Assembly: GCF_014646655.1 (NCBI RefSeq)
Contig: NZ_BMNR01000005.1
Location: 186,001 to 250,000 of the forward strand
DNA length: 64,000 bases
Source: Yeosuana aromativorans
Lineage (GTDB): Bacteria; Bacteroidota; Bacteroidia; Flavobacteriales; Flavobacteriaceae
Direction: 5' to 3'
Positions within the stretch are counted from its first letter, which is position 1; each line of letters begins with the position of its first letter. A model generated the notes under the pieces. That model made no database searches. It saw only the letters and a list, made by a program, of their open reading frames with translations, and was not told the origin of the DNA. Shown here in pieces: positions 5,518 to 62,168 of this stretch. The position numbers were made by a program, and so were the translations under genes.

Positions 5518-5665
5518 TTGAGATTTGGTTAGTAAGCATTTTTAGACAAATATAGAAAAGGAAATGATTAGCCAATTATAAAGTCTTCTTAATACCTTTT
5601 TTTTGGATGAATGGTGGCTGGCTGTTAGCTATTGGGTTTTCGCCGTTGGTTGTTGGTGGTTTTAA

Positions 5666-5693
5666 AGATTGCTTCGCTTTGCTAGCAATGACG
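5666..5693 (+). repeat. Palindromic repeat family B
   Basis: Sequence starts AGATTGCTTCGCTTTGCT and ends GCAATGACG. ATTGC and GCAAT pair as the outer stem. This copy reads GCTAGCAATG where the others read GCTCGCAATG. Confidence 0.75.
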
Positions 5694-5745
5694 GTAGATG
5701 GATGGTTAGGTATGAAAGGTTATACTTTAAAGGTCGCCAGATTCT

Positions 5746-5773
5746 AGATTGCTTCGCTTTGCTCGCAATGACG
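5746..5773 (+). repeat. Palindromic repeat family B
   Basis: Identical to the copies at 7475-7502 and 8296-8323 over the whole 28 bp. It also shares upstream flank (CCAGATTCT) with the 8296 copy, so a longer unit was duplicated. Confidence 0.8.
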
Positions 5774-5803
5774 AGTGGATGGATTGTTTGACAGTTAGAT
5801 CCG

Positions 5804-5851
5804 TTAGACTATTAGATTTTTAGACTATTAGATTGTCAGATTGTTAGATTA
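5804..5851 (+). repeat. 8-bp tandem repeat, six units
   Basis: Six consecutive octamers: TTAGACTA, TTAGATTT, TTAGACTA, TTAGATTG, TCAGATTG, TTAGATTA. Consensus is TTAGAYTN with period exactly 8. A second array of this type is at 8090-8130. Confidence 0.85.
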
Positions 5852-5920
5852 TTTTTAATATTTGGAATTTATAAATGCCCTGCATAAGCTTTCCCTAGAT
5901 TCAATTTCAAAATAATTGTT

Positions 5921-5975
5921 TAAAAAAGCAAAGCCCTAACCTAATTGCTTACGTGTTGCTTGGTTAAGGCCTTTG
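5921..5975 (-). terminator. Intrinsic terminator of the 5996-6745 gene
   Basis: Read on the minus strand, CAAAGGCCTTAACC (5975-5962) pairs with GGTTAGGGCTTTG (5941-5929) across a 20-nt loop. A CTTTTTT tract follows. It lies 20 bp past the gene's stop codon. Confidence 0.7.
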
Positions 5976-5995
5976 TGATCTACTCAGGCTATTGA

Positions 5996-6745
5996 TCAAA
6001 GAATTTCCACGATATGCAGTACGTTAAATGTGCCATTGTTTAACATGTACTGTACCCCATTGATTTCCTGATAGAAGGTCATTTTCATAATAAACAGGTT
6101 TTGACCTGTTCCAGTTGGCAGGGCAGGGGGTGTCATTGTTACATCTACCAGGCTCCCATTTATTGGTAGATTGACCTCAGGGCTTATCTGTACGTCTTTT
6201 TCACCTGTAACAAAATCGAGATTTAAAATCCCAGAACTGAAGCTTACATGGGTAGCTCCACCAGGAGCATTCATTTGTTGCATGGGGTTAAAATCAGTAA
6301 TGGTCACCTCACCTGTTGTAGTGTTCAATTGGTAATCGGCCAAAAGCACGCCTTTTAACTTGGCGTTGCTGTTAAAATCAAATTCTTTTAAAATGGATTT
6401 GCCCTCAGGTGTTGTTAAGCCAATTCCAACCTGCCTGCTTCCCCTTACAGAGGTACTGTCGGTATTTTTAATTTGTGACAGGATTTTCATCATGCGTGCC
6501 GTCAGGGTTCGGTCTTTTACATCCGCTAGCATGGGTGTAAGGGCTTGCCTGAACACTTTTCCGCTTTTGGCTATGTGTCCAAACTCTGAGCCATTTTCAC
6601 GGGTCCGGATGAATGCTGGGTCATTTTCAATGCGGTTTTTTGATACACCTCCTTTGGTACGTACCAAATAACCGTCTTTTCCTTTGTAGAAGGTCATTCC
6701 ATCCAGGGTTCCTTCAATTTTGATAAGGCTTTTTAACTTTGCCAT
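5996..6745 (-). CDS. Hypothetical protein, DUF6266-like architecture
   Basis: This 249-residue protein is not assigned a function. The N-terminus is basic and glycine-rich (EGTLDGMTFYKGKDGYLVRT, KGGVSKNRIENDPAF), followed by a helical stretch around 55-95. The second half looks all-beta with Pro/Gly turns and repeated threonines. The opening short strands, then a basic ENDPAFIRTRENGSEFG stretch, then a beta C-terminal domain recall the DUF6266 proteins common in Bacteroidota; this is a weak structural impression. No signal peptide. It is a single-gene unit with its own terminator, flanked on both sides by repeat-rich spacer and unrelated in style to the polysaccharide genes. A GAGTCTT/AAGACTC hairpin (6762-6787) sits just upstream of the start. 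Confidence 0.65.
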   Translation of the reverse strand: MAKLKSLIKIEGTLDGMTFYKGKDGYLVRTKGGVSKNRIENDPAFIRTRENGSEFGHIAKSGKVFRQALTPMLADVKDRTLTARMMKILSQIKNTDSTSVRGSRQVGIGLTTPEGKSILKEFDFNSNAKLKGVLLADYQLNTTTGEVTITDFNPMQQMNAPGGATHVSFSSGILNLDFVTGEKDVQISPEVNLPINGSLVDVTMTPPALPTGTGQNLFIMKMTFYQEINGVQYMLNNGTFNVLHIVEIL

Positions 6746-7390
6746 GGTTTGTTGTTTTTATGAGTCTTTACTATTTTTTTAAGACTCGGTTACTATTAAT
6801 CGTTTTTGTAAACAGGATGGTTTAAATTCTAAATGAGCTCCTTTAGATTTTACCTATCACTGAATGACCTTTCAAAAGTATATAAGGGTTAAAACTGTTG
6901 GTGTTTGTTTTTCTGCTTTTAGTATTAACTAGCTGTTTTAGTTTAAAATGATTGGATTTTTAGTACTATCTATTTTATTAACAGTATTGTAGTTTTTGCA
7001 GTTTTTTATACTATCTATACTATTTTATAGATTGTATAGGTTCTGTATATTTAACAGTCCCATACTTTATCCATACAGTATCTATGGAGTATCTATGAAG
7101 CATCTATGCTGTTGGATAAGGAATTGTACCTTCCTGAAATAGCCTTCCAGTCATTTTAGGGTGATTATTACTTGATCGCTTTGACACTCATTGTCACTTT
7201 GAGTGGCTCTCAATGCGAAATTCGTTTCAAGGATTTTATTCGAGATGACAAGTTGTGAAAAGTGAGTCGTGAATGGTGGATGGCTGTTAGCTGTTGGCTG
7301 CTAGCCTTTGGCGGTTTTAAAGATTGCCTTGCTGAACTAGCATTATGTTGTTTTTCGTTTATGCGTTTATGCGTTGATGTGTTTATGACT

Positions 7391-7431
7391 GTTCTCGATA
7401 CTATTTTCTTCGTAAATCACTCGAACTGACA
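7391..7431 (+). repeat. Palindromic repeat family A
   Basis: Begins GTTCTCGATAC and ends CACTCGAACTGACA. The inner arms are partly degraded here. It is followed by CGTGGTGAA, as is the copy at 8029-8070. Confidence 0.8.
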
Positions 7432-7474
7432 CGTGGTGAAAGGTGAAAAGTGGATAGTGAGCTGAAGTTTGACG

Positions 7475-7502
7475 AGATTGCTTCGCTTTGCTCGCAATGA
7501 CG
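7475..7502 (+). repeat. Palindromic repeat family B
   Basis: Same 28-bp sequence as 5746-5773 and 8296-8323, lying between two family A copies. Confidence 0.8.
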
Positions 7503-7531
7503 AGTGGGTGGGCAGGTGTGATAGGTGAATG

Positions 7532-7573
7532 GTTCTCGATACAATTTTCTGTCGAAAATCACTCGAACTGACA
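7532..7573 (+). repeat. Palindromic repeat family A
   Basis: Well-preserved copy from GTTCTCGATACAATTTTC to CACTCGAACTGACA. The inner arms ATTTTC and GAAAAT pair around a 4-nt loop. Confidence 0.85.
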
Positions 7574-7606
7574 TTTTTCTTGTTTTACGTTTATTCGGTT
7601 ATAAAT

Positions 7607-7649
7607 GTTCTTGATACAATTTTCCTGCTTTGAATGACTCGAACTGACA
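7607..7649 (+). repeat. Palindromic repeat family A, degraded
   Basis: Starts GTTCTTGATACAATTTTC and ends GACTCGAACTGACA. The inner right arm no longer pairs well. Confidence 0.7.
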
Positions 7650-7660
7650 AAGATGCACTG

Positions 7661-7715
7661 ATTGTCACTTCGAGTGGATTTGTGAAGCGTTAGCGAACAA
7701 ATTTGTATCGAGAAG
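7661..7715 (-). repeat. Palindromic repeat family A, inverted copy before the GIY-YIG gene
   Basis: On the plus strand this reads TTGTCACTTCGAGTG ... TTTGTATCGAGAAG, the reverse complement of the family ends. The inner arms are ATTTGT and ACAAAT, different from the ATTTTC/GAAAAT arms of other copies but again complementary. It ends 17 bp before the start codon of the nuclease gene. Confidence 0.8.
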
Positions 7716-7732
7716 TATTTTATATTTAATGT

Positions 7733-8026
7733 ATGAAAACATATTACGTTTATATCTTAAAATGTTCAGATAACACCTATTACACAGGAATCACCTCAAA
7801 TCTCGATAAAAGAGTCATTGAACATAACTCTGGCAAACACAAAGATAGCTATACCCATTCAAGAAGACCGGTTTCATTGGTTTTTTATGCTGAATTTACG
7901 GAGCCAACAAAAGCAATTGAAACAGAAAAGCAAATTAAGAAATGGTCAAAGGCAAAAATAGAGGCCCTGATTAATAATGAGTTTGAAATGCTAGCAAATC
8001 TTTCAAAGAAAAAATTTAAACCGTAA
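7733..8026 (+). CDS. Small GIY-YIG nuclease-domain protein
   Basis: This 97-residue single-domain protein belongs to the GIY-YIG superfamily (UPF0213/YhbQ-like). YVYILKCSDNTYYTGIT gives the two signature strands: YVY at 5-7 stands for GIY, and YTG at 17-19 for YIG. R27 sits where the catalytic arginine is expected, and AIETEKQIKKW at 61-71 supplies the conserved glutamate (E65) and basic helix. Members cut DNA using one metal ion; targets of the small versions are generally unknown. It has no DNA-binding extension. It is bracketed by inverted copies of palindrome family A, one ending 17 bp before the ATG and one starting 3 bp after the stop. It stands alone among gene-free repeats. Confidence 0.9.
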   Translation: MKTYYVYILKCSDNTYYTGITSNLDKRVIEHNSGKHKDSYTHSRRPVSLVFYAEFTEPTKAIETEKQIKKWSKAKIEALINNEFEMLANLSKKKFKP

Positions 8027-8028
8027 TT

Positions 8029-8070
8029 GTTCTCGATACATTTTTCTATCGAAAATCACTCGAACTGACA
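8029..8070 (+). repeat. Palindromic repeat family A, copy after the GIY-YIG gene
   Basis: Begins GTTCTCGATACATTTTTC and ends CACTCGAACTGACA. It starts 3 bp after the stop codon and is inverted relative to the copy at 7661-7715. TCGATA and TATCGA can also pair inside this copy. Confidence 0.85.
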
Positions 8071-8089
8071 CGTGGTGAATGGTGAAAAG

Positions 8090-8130
8090 TTAGACTTTTT
8101 AGATTGTTAGATGATTAGATTTTTAGACCA
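8090..8130 (+). repeat. 8-bp tandem repeat, about five units
   Basis: TTAGACTT, (T)TTAGATTG, TTAGATGA, TTAGATTT, TTAGACCA: the same octamer type as 5804-5851, with one 9-bp unit. Confidence 0.75.
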
Positions 8131-8159
8131 TGGATTAGTTCACGTAATTTTAAGGTATT

Positions 8160-8250
8160 CGTCACTGCGAGACGCCTGCGGAGTGGCAGTCTGTTTGTTT
8201 GGAGGCTTCTCTACAGAGATTACTTCAGTCGTTTCTCCTTCGTAATGACG
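8160..8250. repeat. Long imperfect inverted repeat related to family B
   Basis: The left end CGTCACTGCGAG and the right end CTTCGTAATGACG form imperfect inverted termini. Inner segments GTGGCAGTCTGTTT and AGAGATTACTTC correspond to the GCAATCT/AGATTGC words of family B. It reads as a two-armed, full-length relative of the short family B copies. Confidence 0.6.
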
Positions 8251-8295
8251 GGGGTTGTGAGGAGTGAGTGGTTATGCTTTAGGTCACCAGATTCT

Positions 8296-8323
8296 AGATT
8301 GCTTCGCTTTGCTCGCAATGACG
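8296..8323 (+). repeat. Palindromic repeat family B
   Basis: Same 28-bp sequence as 5746-5773. The preceding GGTCACCAGATTCT matches GGTCGCCAGATTCT there, so the duplicated unit is about 50 bp. Confidence 0.8.
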
Positions 8324-8330
8324 GTAGGTG

Positions 8331-8707
8331 GGTGGTGTAGATGGTGAATAGCTAGTTGTGAGAGGTTAGATTTTATTTTTTTAGATTATATAGTTTGGCT
8401 TGATAAAATCAAGGTGGAGCCTCAAATAGCTCTTGTTTTGATAAAAATACTATTATAACTGTGTGAATATGCCTTTTTTTTTACTTTATAACAAATTGAT
8501 AGACAGAATTTTTAATGATTCTATTTTATTTGTTTGCCTAACTAAACACCAAAATTGTTAACAACATTTTTAATAACTCATTTGGCTTCTTTTCATAGCA
8601 TTTTAATAGTTGCTTATTTTTGATTTATCAACTAATTATAACTTTATGAAAGGCGATTTTAAAACTATAAGAACCGTGTTTAAAAAACACCAATTGTATT
8701 TTAATTT
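8331..8707. other. AT-rich spacer upstream of the 8708 gene
   Basis: I see no gene in it. It carries the presumed promoter of the small downstream gene, which I cannot place. A hairpin GTGTTT/AAACAC at 8676-8690 lies about 18 bp before that gene's start. Confidence 0.4.
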
Positions 8708-26968: not shown

Positions 26969-27009
26969 GTTCTCGATACATTTTTCTGCGAAAATCACTC
27001 GAACTGACA
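26969..27009 (+). repeat. Palindromic repeat family A
   Basis: Begins GTTCTCGATACATTTTTC and ends CACTCGAACTGACA, about 19 kb from the island at 7-8 kb. TTTTC and GAAAA pair around a 3-nt loop. It lies in the spacer between the two UDP-GalNAcA genes, preceded by TTTATTCGTTTATGTG as at 28.45 kb. Confidence 0.85.
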
Positions 27010-28423: not shown

Positions 28424-28444
28424 GTTCTCGATACGATTTTCTTG
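28424..28444 (+). repeat. Palindromic repeat family A, left half only
   Basis: GTTCTCGATACGATTTTCTT without the GAACTGACA half. A complete copy follows 32 bp later. Confidence 0.65.
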
Positions 28445-28475: not shown

Positions 28476-28516
28476 GTTCTCGATACAATTTTCTGCGAAA
28501 AATACTCGAACTGACA
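28476..28516 (+). repeat. Palindromic repeat family A
   Basis: Begins GTTCTCGATACAATTTTC and ends ACTCGAACTGACA. ATTTTC and GAAAAAT pair around TGC. It is followed within 20 bp by a 7-bp tandem array. Confidence 0.85.
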
Positions 28517-30325: not shown

Positions 30326-32274
30326 TTAAACATTACTTTGCTTATTATTCTCAAAAATATGCCTCTAAATGGCTCGTATTAGGGATTGACTTATCCATTG
30401 TATTGGTTAGTTTTTTTATTGCTTATGTTATTCGCTTTAATTTTACCCTCGATTTTGATATTGCCCAATTTTTAGTACAGTTGCCTATCTTGTTTGTAAT
30501 AGCTGCCTGTAGTTTTTTGATTGTTGGGTCTTTTAAAAGTGTTATTAGACATACGGGTTTTACCGATGTGATCAATTTATTTAAATCGGTATCACTCATG
30601 GTATTTATGACTGCTTTCCTTGTGGTTTTTAATCGTATTACTAATTTGATACCTGGGTTTACCATTCCTTTATCTATTCTTGTTATTCATGCACTTATCA
30701 GTTTTATGTCGCTCAGTGCCAGCAGATTGCTGTTTAAAGTGTTATATCGCTATGCTAAATGTAGACTTATGGCTTCAAAAAAAGTCATGATTTATGGCGC
30801 TGGTGATTCAGGGCTGGTTACCTATAATGCCTTGGTGAACAATGTGAAAACCAGATTTGAGGTCTGTGCCTTTATTGATGATAGCATCAAAAAATCCGGC
30901 AAGCTTATAAATGGGGTGCCTATTGTATCCTATAATACCGTTACTCCTAACTATGTTAGAGCCCATCACATTGATGAAATTGTTGTGGCTACCCAAAACA
31001 TAGATACCAATCACTTGATGCATTTGATTGATTCTTTGATAGATACCAACGTTAAGGTTACCAAGGTGCCACCTATTGAACAATGGATCAATGGTGAGTT
31101 GAGCACCAACCAAATCAAAAAAGTACAGATTGAAGATTTATTGGGTCGAGCCCCCATACAGATTGATAATCCTAATTTATTAAACGAATTTAATGGTGAA
31201 ACGGTTGTCGTTACTGGAGCTGCCGGCTCCATAGGCAGTGAGTTGGTAAAGCAATTATCCAATTTTGCGGTCAAGCATTTGATTTTGATTGACCAAGCAG
31301 AGTCACCATTATATGACTTGCAGCAAGACCTAAAACAACAGGGTAAATACAATTTCACCGCTATTGTTGCTGATATCCGAGATGGATTGCGTATAGACGG
31401 TATTTTTCAAGAGCATAAGCCTACCATGGTTTTTCATGCAGCAGCCTATAAACACGTACCATTAATGGAAGCATCGCCTTATGAGGCCATCAAAATAAAC
31501 GTGAACGGCACTAAAATATTAGCTGATATATCTTCTCGTTATAACGTTAAAAAGTTTGTGTTTATATCTACGGATAAAGCGGTCAACCCAACCAGTGTGA
31601 TGGGTGCTACCAAGCGTATGGCCGAAATGTACATTAGTTGTTTACAAAAAGAAAGTAAAACGAAATTCATTACCACGCGTTTTGGAAACGTACTGGGATC
31701 TAACGGTTCTGTAATTCCATTATTTAAAAAGCAAATTGAAAACGGTGGTCCTTTAACCTTGACACATAAAGATATCACTCGATATTTTATGACCATTCCT
31801 GAGGCTTCTCAATTGGTTCTTGAAGCTGGCACAATGGGTAAAGGTGGTGAAATATTTATTTTTGACATGGGTGAATCGGTCAAGATTTATTATCTTGCCT
31901 TGAACATGATTAAATTGTCAGGACTACGTTTTCCTGAGGACATTGATATTAAAATCACTGGATTACGACCTGGAGAAAAACTCTATGAGGAATTATTGGC
32001 CAATGGAGAAAACACCTTGTCAACTTACAATAAAAAAATCATGATCAGTAAGACCCGCGAACTGGATTATGAAAAAGTGAAAGCTGATATTGAAGCCTTG
32101 TGCATCACCAATCGTTTTCAACACAATAATATTGTGTTGAAAATGAAACAATTGATTCCAGAGTATAAATCGAATAACTCCGATTACGAGAAATTTGATA
32201 AACGGGTGCGTGTTTACGAACAAGCCAAAGGAATATTATCCAATACCGTAGATAAAACTTTTATTAATTTATAG
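30322..32274 (+). CDS. Membrane UDP-sugar 4,6-dehydratase (FlaA1/CapD/PglF type)
   Basis: The 650-residue protein has four N-terminal membrane helices (about 18-140), a CoA-binding-like Rossmann domain starting VMIYGAGDSG near 155, and a C-terminal SDR dehydratase with VVTGAAGSIGSEL near 296-308, AAYKHVPLME and STDKAVNPTSVMGATK near 416-431. The position of the usual catalytic Tyr is Met, as in PglF-type enzymes. The long frame is open from 30244, but the ATG at 30322 overlaps the previous stop by 4 bp and starts MIKHYFAYYSQKYASKWLVL. It makes the 4-keto-6-deoxy intermediate for the aminotransferase. Confidence 0.92.
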   Translation: MIKHYFAYYSQKYASKWLVLGIDLSIVLVSFFIAYVIRFNFTLDFDIAQFLVQLPILFVIAACSFLIVGSFKSVIRHTGFTDVINLFKSVSLMVFMTAFLVVFNRITNLIPGFTIPLSILVIHALISFMSLSASRLLFKVLYRYAKCRLMASKKVMIYGAGDSGLVTYNALVNNVKTRFEVCAFIDDSIKKSGKLINGVPIVSYNTVTPNYVRAHHIDEIVVATQNIDTNHLMHLIDSLIDTNVKVTKVPPIEQWINGELSTNQIKKVQIEDLLGRAPIQIDNPNLLNEFNGETVVVTGAAGSIGSELVKQLSNFAVKHLILIDQAESPLYDLQQDLKQQGKYNFTAIVADIRDGLRIDGIFQEHKPTMVFHAAAYKHVPLMEASPYEAIKINVNGTKILADISSRYNVKKFVFISTDKAVNPTSVMGATKRMAEMYISCLQKESKTKFITTRFGNVLGSNGSVIPLFKKQIENGGPLTLTHKDITRYFMTIPEASQLVLEAGTMGKGGEIFIFDMGESVKIYYLALNMIKLSGLRFPEDIDIKITGLRPGEKLYEELLANGENTLSTYNKKIMISKTRELDYEKVKADIEALCITNRFQHNNIVLKMKQLIPEYKSNNSDYEKFDKRVRVYEQAKGILSNTVDKTFINL

Positions 32275-39268: not shown

Positions 39269-40348
39269 TTAAAGGTTTTCCTGGCAAAATTTAGATATTA
39301 TGTGTTTTATATCTGAAACTGTCTGGAAAGCCTTTATATTTTGTAGAGGTTTTAGATTGAAGACTGGTTGTTCTTTTTTTTGTTTTGGTATAATGTACCA
39401 AATATCACTGTATTCGGTCGGGCATAATTTTTCATAATCAGAAATCATGTCCTCATGCAGCTTTTCACCAGGCCGTAATCCTATAAAATTGATTTTTACG
39501 TCACTAGCTGGTTTTATATTTTGCAACTGAATAAATACATTGGCCAAATCAATGATTTTGATCGGTTTGCCCATATCAAATGTGAATACATATGATTTCC
39601 AATGGTCAAGACTTGCTATTTTTAAAATTAGCTGGCACGCCCTGTTTTTGTTTATAACATATCTAGTTACTGCTTTATGGGTAATGGTAATGGCATTTTG
39701 CTCTTGGATTTGTTTTTTAAATAAGGGTATTAAGGATCCGTTTGAACCCAATACATTTCCAAATCGTGTTATTAAAAATGTTGTTTTATTAAGGGTATTC
39801 AATCCATCTAAATGGGTTTCAGCTATCCATTTTGTCATACCCATCACGCTTATGGGGTTTGCCGCCTTATCAGTCGATATGAACACAAACTTCTTGGTAC
39901 GGTGTTTTAATGCCAGGTCTGCCAGTATTTTAGTCCCTAAAACATTCAGTTTAATGGCTTCATAAGGATTTGATTCCATTAACGGCACATGTTTATAGGC
40001 CGCTGTATGAAAAACCAGTGATGGCTTCCAGGTTTTAAACAGCTCTTTCATGGCATGTTCATCACGAATATCAGACACTATAAAATGAAGCTTGTTTAGT
40101 TGAAGCAATTCCAGTTCCTTTTGCAAAAAATAAAGAGGGGTTTCCGCATTATCCAGTAACACAAGCTGTTTAAAAGAACACTTGATGAGTTGTTTGGCAA
40201 TGCCGCTACCAATGGTACCAGCTGCTCCCGTAATCAAAATGGTTTCATTGGAGAAATCAAAATCTGCAATTGCTTCCTGCTTGGCTTGTGACAGCAAACC
40301 AGAATCGTCCAATAATTTTTTAATTCGGTTAAAATTGGTTTGGTTCAT
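39269..40348 (-). CDS. Short UDP-sugar 4,6-dehydratase-like SDR (CapD family)
   Basis: The 359-residue soluble protein matches only the catalytic C-terminal part of the membrane dehydratase at 30322: ILITGAAGTIGSGIAKQL, VLLDNAETPLYFLQKEL, AAYKHVPLMESNPYEAIKLN, STDKAANPISVMGMTKWIAE, FITRFGNVLGSNGSLIPLFKK with one N-terminal residue changed to LITRF, and IGLRPGEKLHEDM. It lacks the membrane and CoA-binding-like domains. It may serve a second glycan (for example O-antigen or protein glycan) together with the sugar transferase gene downstream at 40455. Confidence 0.87.
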   Translation of the reverse strand: MNQTNFNRIKKLLDDSGLLSQAKQEAIADFDFSNETILITGAAGTIGSGIAKQLIKCSFKQLVLLDNAETPLYFLQKELELLQLNKLHFIVSDIRDEHAMKELFKTWKPSLVFHTAAYKHVPLMESNPYEAIKLNVLGTKILADLALKHRTKKFVFISTDKAANPISVMGMTKWIAETHLDGLNTLNKTTFLITRFGNVLGSNGSLIPLFKKQIQEQNAITITHKAVTRYVINKNRACQLILKIASLDHWKSYVFTFDMGKPIKIIDLANVFIQLQNIKPASDVKINFIGLRPGEKLHEDMISDYEKLCPTEYSDIWYIIPKQKKEQPVFNLKPLQNIKAFQTVSDIKHIISKFCQENL

Positions 40349-62098: not shown

Positions 62099-62168
62099 CG
62101 TCATGCTGAACTTGTTTCAGCATCACACAAACAAATTAATGAGACACTGAAATACATTCAGTATGACG
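62099..62168. repeat. Palindromic repeat family C inserted between hisD and hisC
   Basis: The left arm CGTCATGCTGAACTTGTTTC-AG and the reverse complement of the right arm (CGTCATACTGAATGTATTTC-AG) match at 18 of 22 positions, with about 26 nt between. The element takes up nearly the entire hisD-hisC gap. Its right end supplies an ATG (62163) in frame with hisC. Confidence 0.82.

Follow-up and report, generated by a model that had tools for sequence, protein, structure and literature searches.

Tagged hairpin repeats bracketing small GIY-YIG nuclease genes: a candidate enzyme partner for CGTC/TGTC-tagged REPs

A bracketed nuclease gene in Yeosuana aromativorans

The window analysed here comprises 64,000 nt of Yeosuana aromativorans (GCF_014646655.1, contig NZ_BMNR01000005.1, positions 186,001-250,000 of the forward strand), from a genome of 3.76 Mb designated G000. 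It contains a gene for a 97-residue protein with a GIY-YIG domain (PF01541, E 3.8e-18), enclosed by inverted copies of a palindromic repeat. Residues Y7, Y17, R27 and E65 of the motif are invariant among the 16 homologues compared, and with its domain and these conserved Y, Y, R and E residues the protein qualifies as a member of the GIY-YIG nuclease superfamily. Nuclease activity, and hence DNA cleavage, is inferred from the domain. The features of the locus and the related copies elsewhere in the window are as follows.

7733-8026, forward strand: GIY-YIG nuclease gene, 97 aa
7663-7714, forward strand: hairpin repeat next to the gene on its upstream side, with an outward-directed GTCAC tag; its stem covaries across the family
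8030-8070, reverse strand: hairpin repeat next to the gene on its downstream side, with an outward-directed GTCAG tag
7608-7649, reverse strand: distal partner of the upstream repeat, the two forming an inverted pair with tags facing each other
7533-7573, reverse strand: same repeat family as the brackets, further upstream of the gene
7392-7431, reverse strand: same repeat family as the brackets, further upstream of the gene
26970-27009, reverse strand: lone copy of the bracketing family, without a nuclease gene
28477-28516, reverse strand: lone copy of the bracketing family
28425-28441: half copy of the bracketing family, beside the lone copy at 28477-28516
7476-7501, reverse strand: second repeat type (CGTCATTGCGAG..GCAATC; GTCATTGCGAGCAAAGCGAAGCAATC), the type that brackets the other small GIY-YIG gene of this genome
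5747-5772 and 8297-8322: further copies of the second repeat type (GTCATTGCGAGCAAAGCGAAGCAATC)

The upstream repeat ends at 7714, leaving 18 bp before the ATG at 7733, and the downstream repeat starts 3 bp past the stop codon. An initial annotation of the window had described a nuclease gene bracketed by inverted palindrome copies, with additional copies at 7391, 7532, 7607, 26969 and 28476. Both claims held, the bracket coordinates to within two bases and the additional copies at 7392, 7533, 7608, 26970 and 28477; the half copy at 28425 is new.

Eight tag matches are observed in the window, where 0.08 would be expected by chance. The whole genome contains 19 tag copies at no more than one mismatch, compared with none for a reversed control pattern, and five of the 19 lie within ~350 bp of the window nuclease gene. 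The interval 5600-8400 also holds other repeat types besides the tagged family that brackets the gene. The nuclease locus is shared with the congener G120.

The window-type repeat is an imperfect hairpin in which conserved boxes, [C/T]GTCA[N]TTCGAGTG and GTATCGAGAA, surround a stem of variable sequence; the position following TGTCA is C or G (TGTCA[CG]TTCGAGTG). Among 296 distinct inner sequences the perfect stem averages 7.0 bp at exactly one register, as against 1.7 bp when the halves are randomly re-paired and ~1 bp at neighbouring registers, and every stem position displays several Watson-Crick pair types. Because pairing is kept while the sequence changes, selection seems to act on the hairpin as such, whether at the level of DNA or of RNA. 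An Rfam search gave no match.

Tagged repeats occur singly, as inverted dimers and in arrays. Where both sides of a nuclease gene are tagged, tags pointing outward on both sides are the commonest layout (35 of 66 loci), but the layout relative to the gene varies, and in Neisseria the tags point inward. A lone dimer in G000 (C1:604474/604573) has the same outward layout, with a spacer where the gene would sit; no right flank that could be aligned was found for it in congeners.

Two further features of the window were recorded. A third palindrome type (GTCATGCTGAACTTGTTTCAGCAT) is represented by one copy at 62100-62123, although G000 encodes no close relative of the GIY-YIG clade that goes with this type. 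Positions 31417-31736 and 39708-40027, ~8 kb apart, contain three colinear inverted-repeat blocks that are 75-77% complementary and are likely to be two paralogous genes in opposite orientation.

Bracketing and clade-specific pairing

The initial annotation had suggested that small GIY-YIG genes of Flavobacteriaceae be examined for flanking repeats, and such repeats are generally present. Among 79 loci of close homologues, tags are found within 400 bp on both sides in 70 and on at least one side in 78, and tag density is ~1.9 per 250 bp beside the nuclease gene versus ~0.03 at 3-6 kb. At a limit of 250 bp, 66 of the 79 nuclease genes are tagged on both sides, compared with 7 of 460 other genes from these loci that served as controls (p=6e-63). 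Expressed per kb, there are 7.5 tags beside the nuclease gene and 0.6 in distant intergenic DNA of the same loci.

A motif-free test was also applied, in which one flank was aligned with the other and the outcome compared with that at 60 positions drawn at random from the locus. The nuclease gene surpassed all 60 positions in 69 of 77 loci. Divergent homologues were bracketed by this test in 33 of 40 cases; these 40 genes, one per genome in list order, were picked before their flanks were seen. The nuclease genes sit within repeat arrays, several genomes carry the gene as near-tandem pairs, and several copies are broken by stop codons.

The association is not limited to the repeat of the window; different clades carry different palindromes, in several phyla, a finding that goes beyond the initial annotation. 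The second small GIY-YIG gene of G000 (C1:601651) has a repeat of another type on both sides, CGTCATTGCGAG..GAAGCAATC, and nine small GIY-YIG genes of congeners display at least six palindrome types. For 85 proteins, similarity of the 200-bp flanks tracks protein identity (Mantel r 0.67, 0/2000 permutations). Pairs at 60-80% protein identity show a strong flank match near the gene in 84-95% of cases, versus 2-12% at 1 kb. When repeat types are placed on the nuclease tree, 20 changes are required versus 56.9 for shuffled labels (0/200); the typing relied on hand-written patterns, and 15 rows were left untyped.

Co-occurrence was assessed in 120 genomes, one per genus, with p values that ignore phylogeny. 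At least three copies of the A repeat are present in 15 of 15 genomes with an A gene and in 18 of 105 others (p=2e-10), and any copy of the C repeat in 12 of 12 genomes with a C gene and in 23 of 108 others (p=8e-8). Cross combinations are weaker: the C gene with any copy of the A repeat gives p=3e-4, and significance is lost at 3 or 5 copies. Each nuclease clade carries a palindrome of its own, and gene and repeats appear to co-evolve.

According to the initial annotation, genomes full of the repeats but lacking any such gene would indicate a chance pairing. Overall co-occurrence is strong, but two of the 120 genomes are of this kind: no small GIY-YIG gene was found in G070 (21 tags) or in G093 (10 tags), and a search between the repeats of G093 found no GIY-YIG remnant. 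It is possible that these repeats are relics, or that they are evidence of another route of spreading.

Other phyla, CGTC-tagged REPs and empty sites

Evidence from outside the Bacteroidota comes from 21 loci of a plasmid collection, picked before their flanks were seen, though not at random; several are chromids or mislabelled chromosomes. The motif-free test was passed by 16 of the 21, which extends bracketing to alpha-, beta- and gammaproteobacteria and to one cyanobacterium. The nuclease-linked repeats are CGTCATCCCCGCGAAGGCGGGGATCCAG dimers in Azospirillum lipoferum, CGTCATCCTCGGGCTTGACCCGAGGATCCA in Shinella, a CCTCATCCCTGTG form in Sinorhizobium, CGTCATTCCCGC..GCGGGAATCC, of the dRS3 type, in Neisseria gonorrhoeae, and TGTCATTCTGAGT in Planktothrix. 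Loci of Legionella (L162), Photobacterium (L174) and Rhizobium (L178) fail the bracketing test, and homologues from E. coli, B. subtilis (YazA), Enterococcus and Cupriavidus have no bracketing repeats; thus bracketing is not common to all small GIY-YIG genes. Small GIY-YIG proteins of the UPF0213/YhbQ/YazA group with solved structures (1zg2, 1ywl) have equal size and the same domain, but the E. coli, B. subtilis and Enterococcus members tested are not bracketed.

As a separate observation, the bracketed gene of a Planktothrix agardhii plasmid (L168, 3001-3285) has a type IIL restriction-modification gene on one side and, on the other, drmA of a DISARM defence system.

The nuclease-linked palindromes fall within the known superfamily of CGTC/TGTC-tagged REPs, a placement that the initial annotation had not made. 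As surveyed in 2013 by Di Nocera et al. (PMC3733652), REPs are intergenic, and those tagged CGTC include neisserial dRS3 and rickettsial RPE-4/RPE-6; A. lipoferum is among the species named. The defining features, a CGTC (or TGTC/CCTC) tag at the end and a palindromic stem after it, are found here, with a covarying stem beside the tag. The Azospirillum, Sinorhizobium and Neisseria nuclease repeats share with the described elements their tag, the AT at the base of the stem, the tail and the arrangement of dimers, and the Azospirillum and Shinella copies fit the described consensus. A stem of 8-9 bp, a loop of 4-5 nt and a CCA-like tail are present in the proteobacterial nuclease repeats, whereas the flavobacterial A type differs in its variable stems, internal loop and lack of a CCA tail, and the flavobacterial type of the window has TGTC tags and longer, variable stems. 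The survey gives these REPs no dedicated enzyme: after transposase genes had been examined and none was found to be flanked by CGTC repeats, they were said to "apparently lack a dedicated transposase" (PMC3733652).

The initial annotation had also proposed that orthologous loci be compared for presence and absence, and such comparisons do show sites that are occupied in one lineage and empty in another. The A. lipoferum gene sits with its repeats between sufB and sufC, which are adjacent in A. ramasamyi, A. oryzae and Azospirillum sp. B510 (flanks 95-98% identical); Shinella PSBB067 carries a different, independent unit in the same junction. The second gene of G000 with its repeats (~750-800 bp) is missing from all six congeners, which have gaps of 3-91 bp. 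Gene plus repeats thus constitutes a presence/absence insertion in two lineages, from which movement is inferred. The second-gene insert ends ~25-30 bp beyond the outermost tags in G000, and neither a target duplication nor an exact insertion boundary could be read at the empty sites of Azospirillum or of the G000 congeners; the exact unit is therefore undefined.

Another flavobacterial repeat, GGGCGTTACCC..GGGTCGGGCTGTCCG..CATCCCTAACGC, was noticed at the junction where the second GIY-YIG unit is inserted (L022, 3362-3425), and it occupies the same junction in G120 (L259) and G123 (L254).

What may spread the repeats

The initial annotation had likened the locus to the REP/RAYT arrangement, with a GIY-YIG nuclease in place of the Y1 transposase. 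The likeness is supported by the bracketing, the presence/absence at orthologous sites and the clade specificity of the repeats. RAYTs are linked to GTAG REPs (PMC2817692, PMC3116915). In REPtrons the gene for the Y1/HUH enzyme (RAYT, or TnpA-REP) is likewise bracketed by inverted tagged hairpins, the repeats are likewise dispersed singly and as inverted dimers, and enzyme clade matches repeat type. The differences lie in the tag, GTAG in REPtrons and CGTC/TGTC in the nuclease-linked repeats, and in the enzyme, which here is a GIY-YIG nuclease of unrelated fold and chemistry. The nuclease-repeat system would resemble a REPtron in its workings but is not one, because the defining Y1 transposase was tested for and is absent. 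No Y1 (RAYT-type) transposase was found in eight of the ten repeat-bearing genomes tested (G000, G110, G101, G029, G068, G024, G070 and G093), and PF01797 has no match anywhere in G000; G006, an A-repeat genome, holds many Y1 genes. The GIY-YIG gene is the sole type-specific partner of the repeats that was found.

GIY-YIG catalysis serves mobile elements in homing endonucleases and in Penelope-like retroelements. The window nuclease differs from both in that its catalytic domain stands alone beside hairpin repeats, with no intron, no DNA-binding module and no reverse transcriptase.

We propose that, in these clades, each small GIY-YIG nuclease and its bracketing tagged hairpins form one selfish unit. 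The nuclease would recognise hairpins of its cognate type, defined by a [C/T]GTC tag and a paired stem, in DNA that is probably extruded or single-stranded, and would cut or nick there, allowing repeat dimers, and less often the gene-bearing unit, to be copied or moved to new intergenic sites. By analogy with the relation thought to hold between REPs/REPINs and RAYTs, lone repeats and dimers would be non-autonomous derivatives. Bracketing, clade-specific pairing, stem covariation, presence/absence of units at two sites and the lack of Y1 genes in most repeat-bearing genomes tested are shown by sequence. That the nuclease recognises or mobilises the palindromes, as the initial annotation had suggested, remains an inference; we lean modestly toward the view that it recognises and cuts its cognate hairpins and so drives the spread of repeat and gene. 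Against the proposal stand the two repeat-bearing genomes without a gene, a second-gene insert that ends outside the tags without a target duplication to be seen, and the variable tag layout, and neither cleavage nor movement has been observed.

The strongest rival, though an unlikely one, is homing: the nuclease would cut pre-existing lone repeats, repair would copy the repeat-flanked gene into the break, and the repeats would spread by other means. GIY-YIG homing endonucleases such as I-TevI and the Seg proteins are well established, and the nuclease genes do sit inside repeat arrays. By definition, homing genes insert into a fixed site that is cleaved when empty; here the units occupy many different contexts, and cleavage is again inferred. 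Against homing, the empty sites, in six congeners at the second-gene site and in three Azospirillum relatives, have no repeat of the relevant type, although the repeat could have arrived first in the same lineage. Homing also leaves the clade-specific spread of the repeats unexplained.

A host or regulatory role without mobility is likewise improbable. The hairpins might control nuclease expression, an alternative raised in the initial annotation that is less likely but not excluded, or the nuclease might process hairpins, such as extruded repeats, for the benefit of the host. The repeats lie within tens of bases of start and stop codons, and stem pairing is selected; however, lone copies of the repeats are found at other places in the genome, the distribution of gene and repeats is patchy, with insertions in different places, and several gene copies are broken.

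A passive neighbourhood effect, in which repeats gather in long intergenic stretches where small dispensable genes also lie, is very unlikely. REPs are intergenic (PMC3733652) and window positions 5600-8400 carry other repeat types, but the density contrast with distant intergenic DNA and the scarcity of bracketed control genes argue otherwise, type-specific pairing would not be expected, and the YhbQ/YazA-type genes tested are without brackets. Finally, movement of the repeats in trans by a RAYT or other Y1 transposase, with the nuclease gene as passenger, would accord with the RAYT-GTAG link (PMC2817692, PMC3116915) and the many Y1 genes of G006 but is made highly improbable by the lack of Y1 genes in eight of ten repeat-bearing genomes tested; Di Nocera et al. 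also found no transposase gene flanked by CGTC repeats (PMC3733652).

Of these readings we retain the selfish unit. On balance, we regard the small GIY-YIG nuclease as the best candidate for the enzyme, hitherto missing, by which CGTC/TGTC-tagged repeats spread, an assignment we favour modestly. A bolder reading, which we hold to be only slightly more likely right than wrong, is that the CGTC/TGTC-tagged REP superfamily has its dedicated mobilising enzymes in stand-alone GIY-YIG nucleases, which would define a class of minimal DNA mobile elements, in Bacteroidota, Pseudomonadota and Cyanobacteriota, with hairpin ends and GIY-YIG chemistry rather than an HUH transposase. Many bacterial genomes contain CGTC-type REPs, and with a specific partner in hand the question of how these arose and spread is open to direct tests. 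The association would also assign a function to small GIY-YIG genes, a large and poorly understood family, and, if true, would add an enzyme class to bacterial transposition and supply natural matched nuclease-hairpin pairs usable as reagents. The initial annotation knew of no described system of this kind, and we found no published account in the open-access literature searched (preprints excluded); its existence elsewhere is not ruled out.

A separate, unbracketed GIY-YIG clade adjoins tRNA genes (L220, 2929-3328; L202, 2927-3406; L217; L222). Two of these loci, L220 and L202, show a duplicate of the 5' part of the tRNA, then the nuclease gene and then an intact tRNA-Arg or tRNA-Asp, as if a second kind of mobile GIY-YIG element inserts into tRNA genes.
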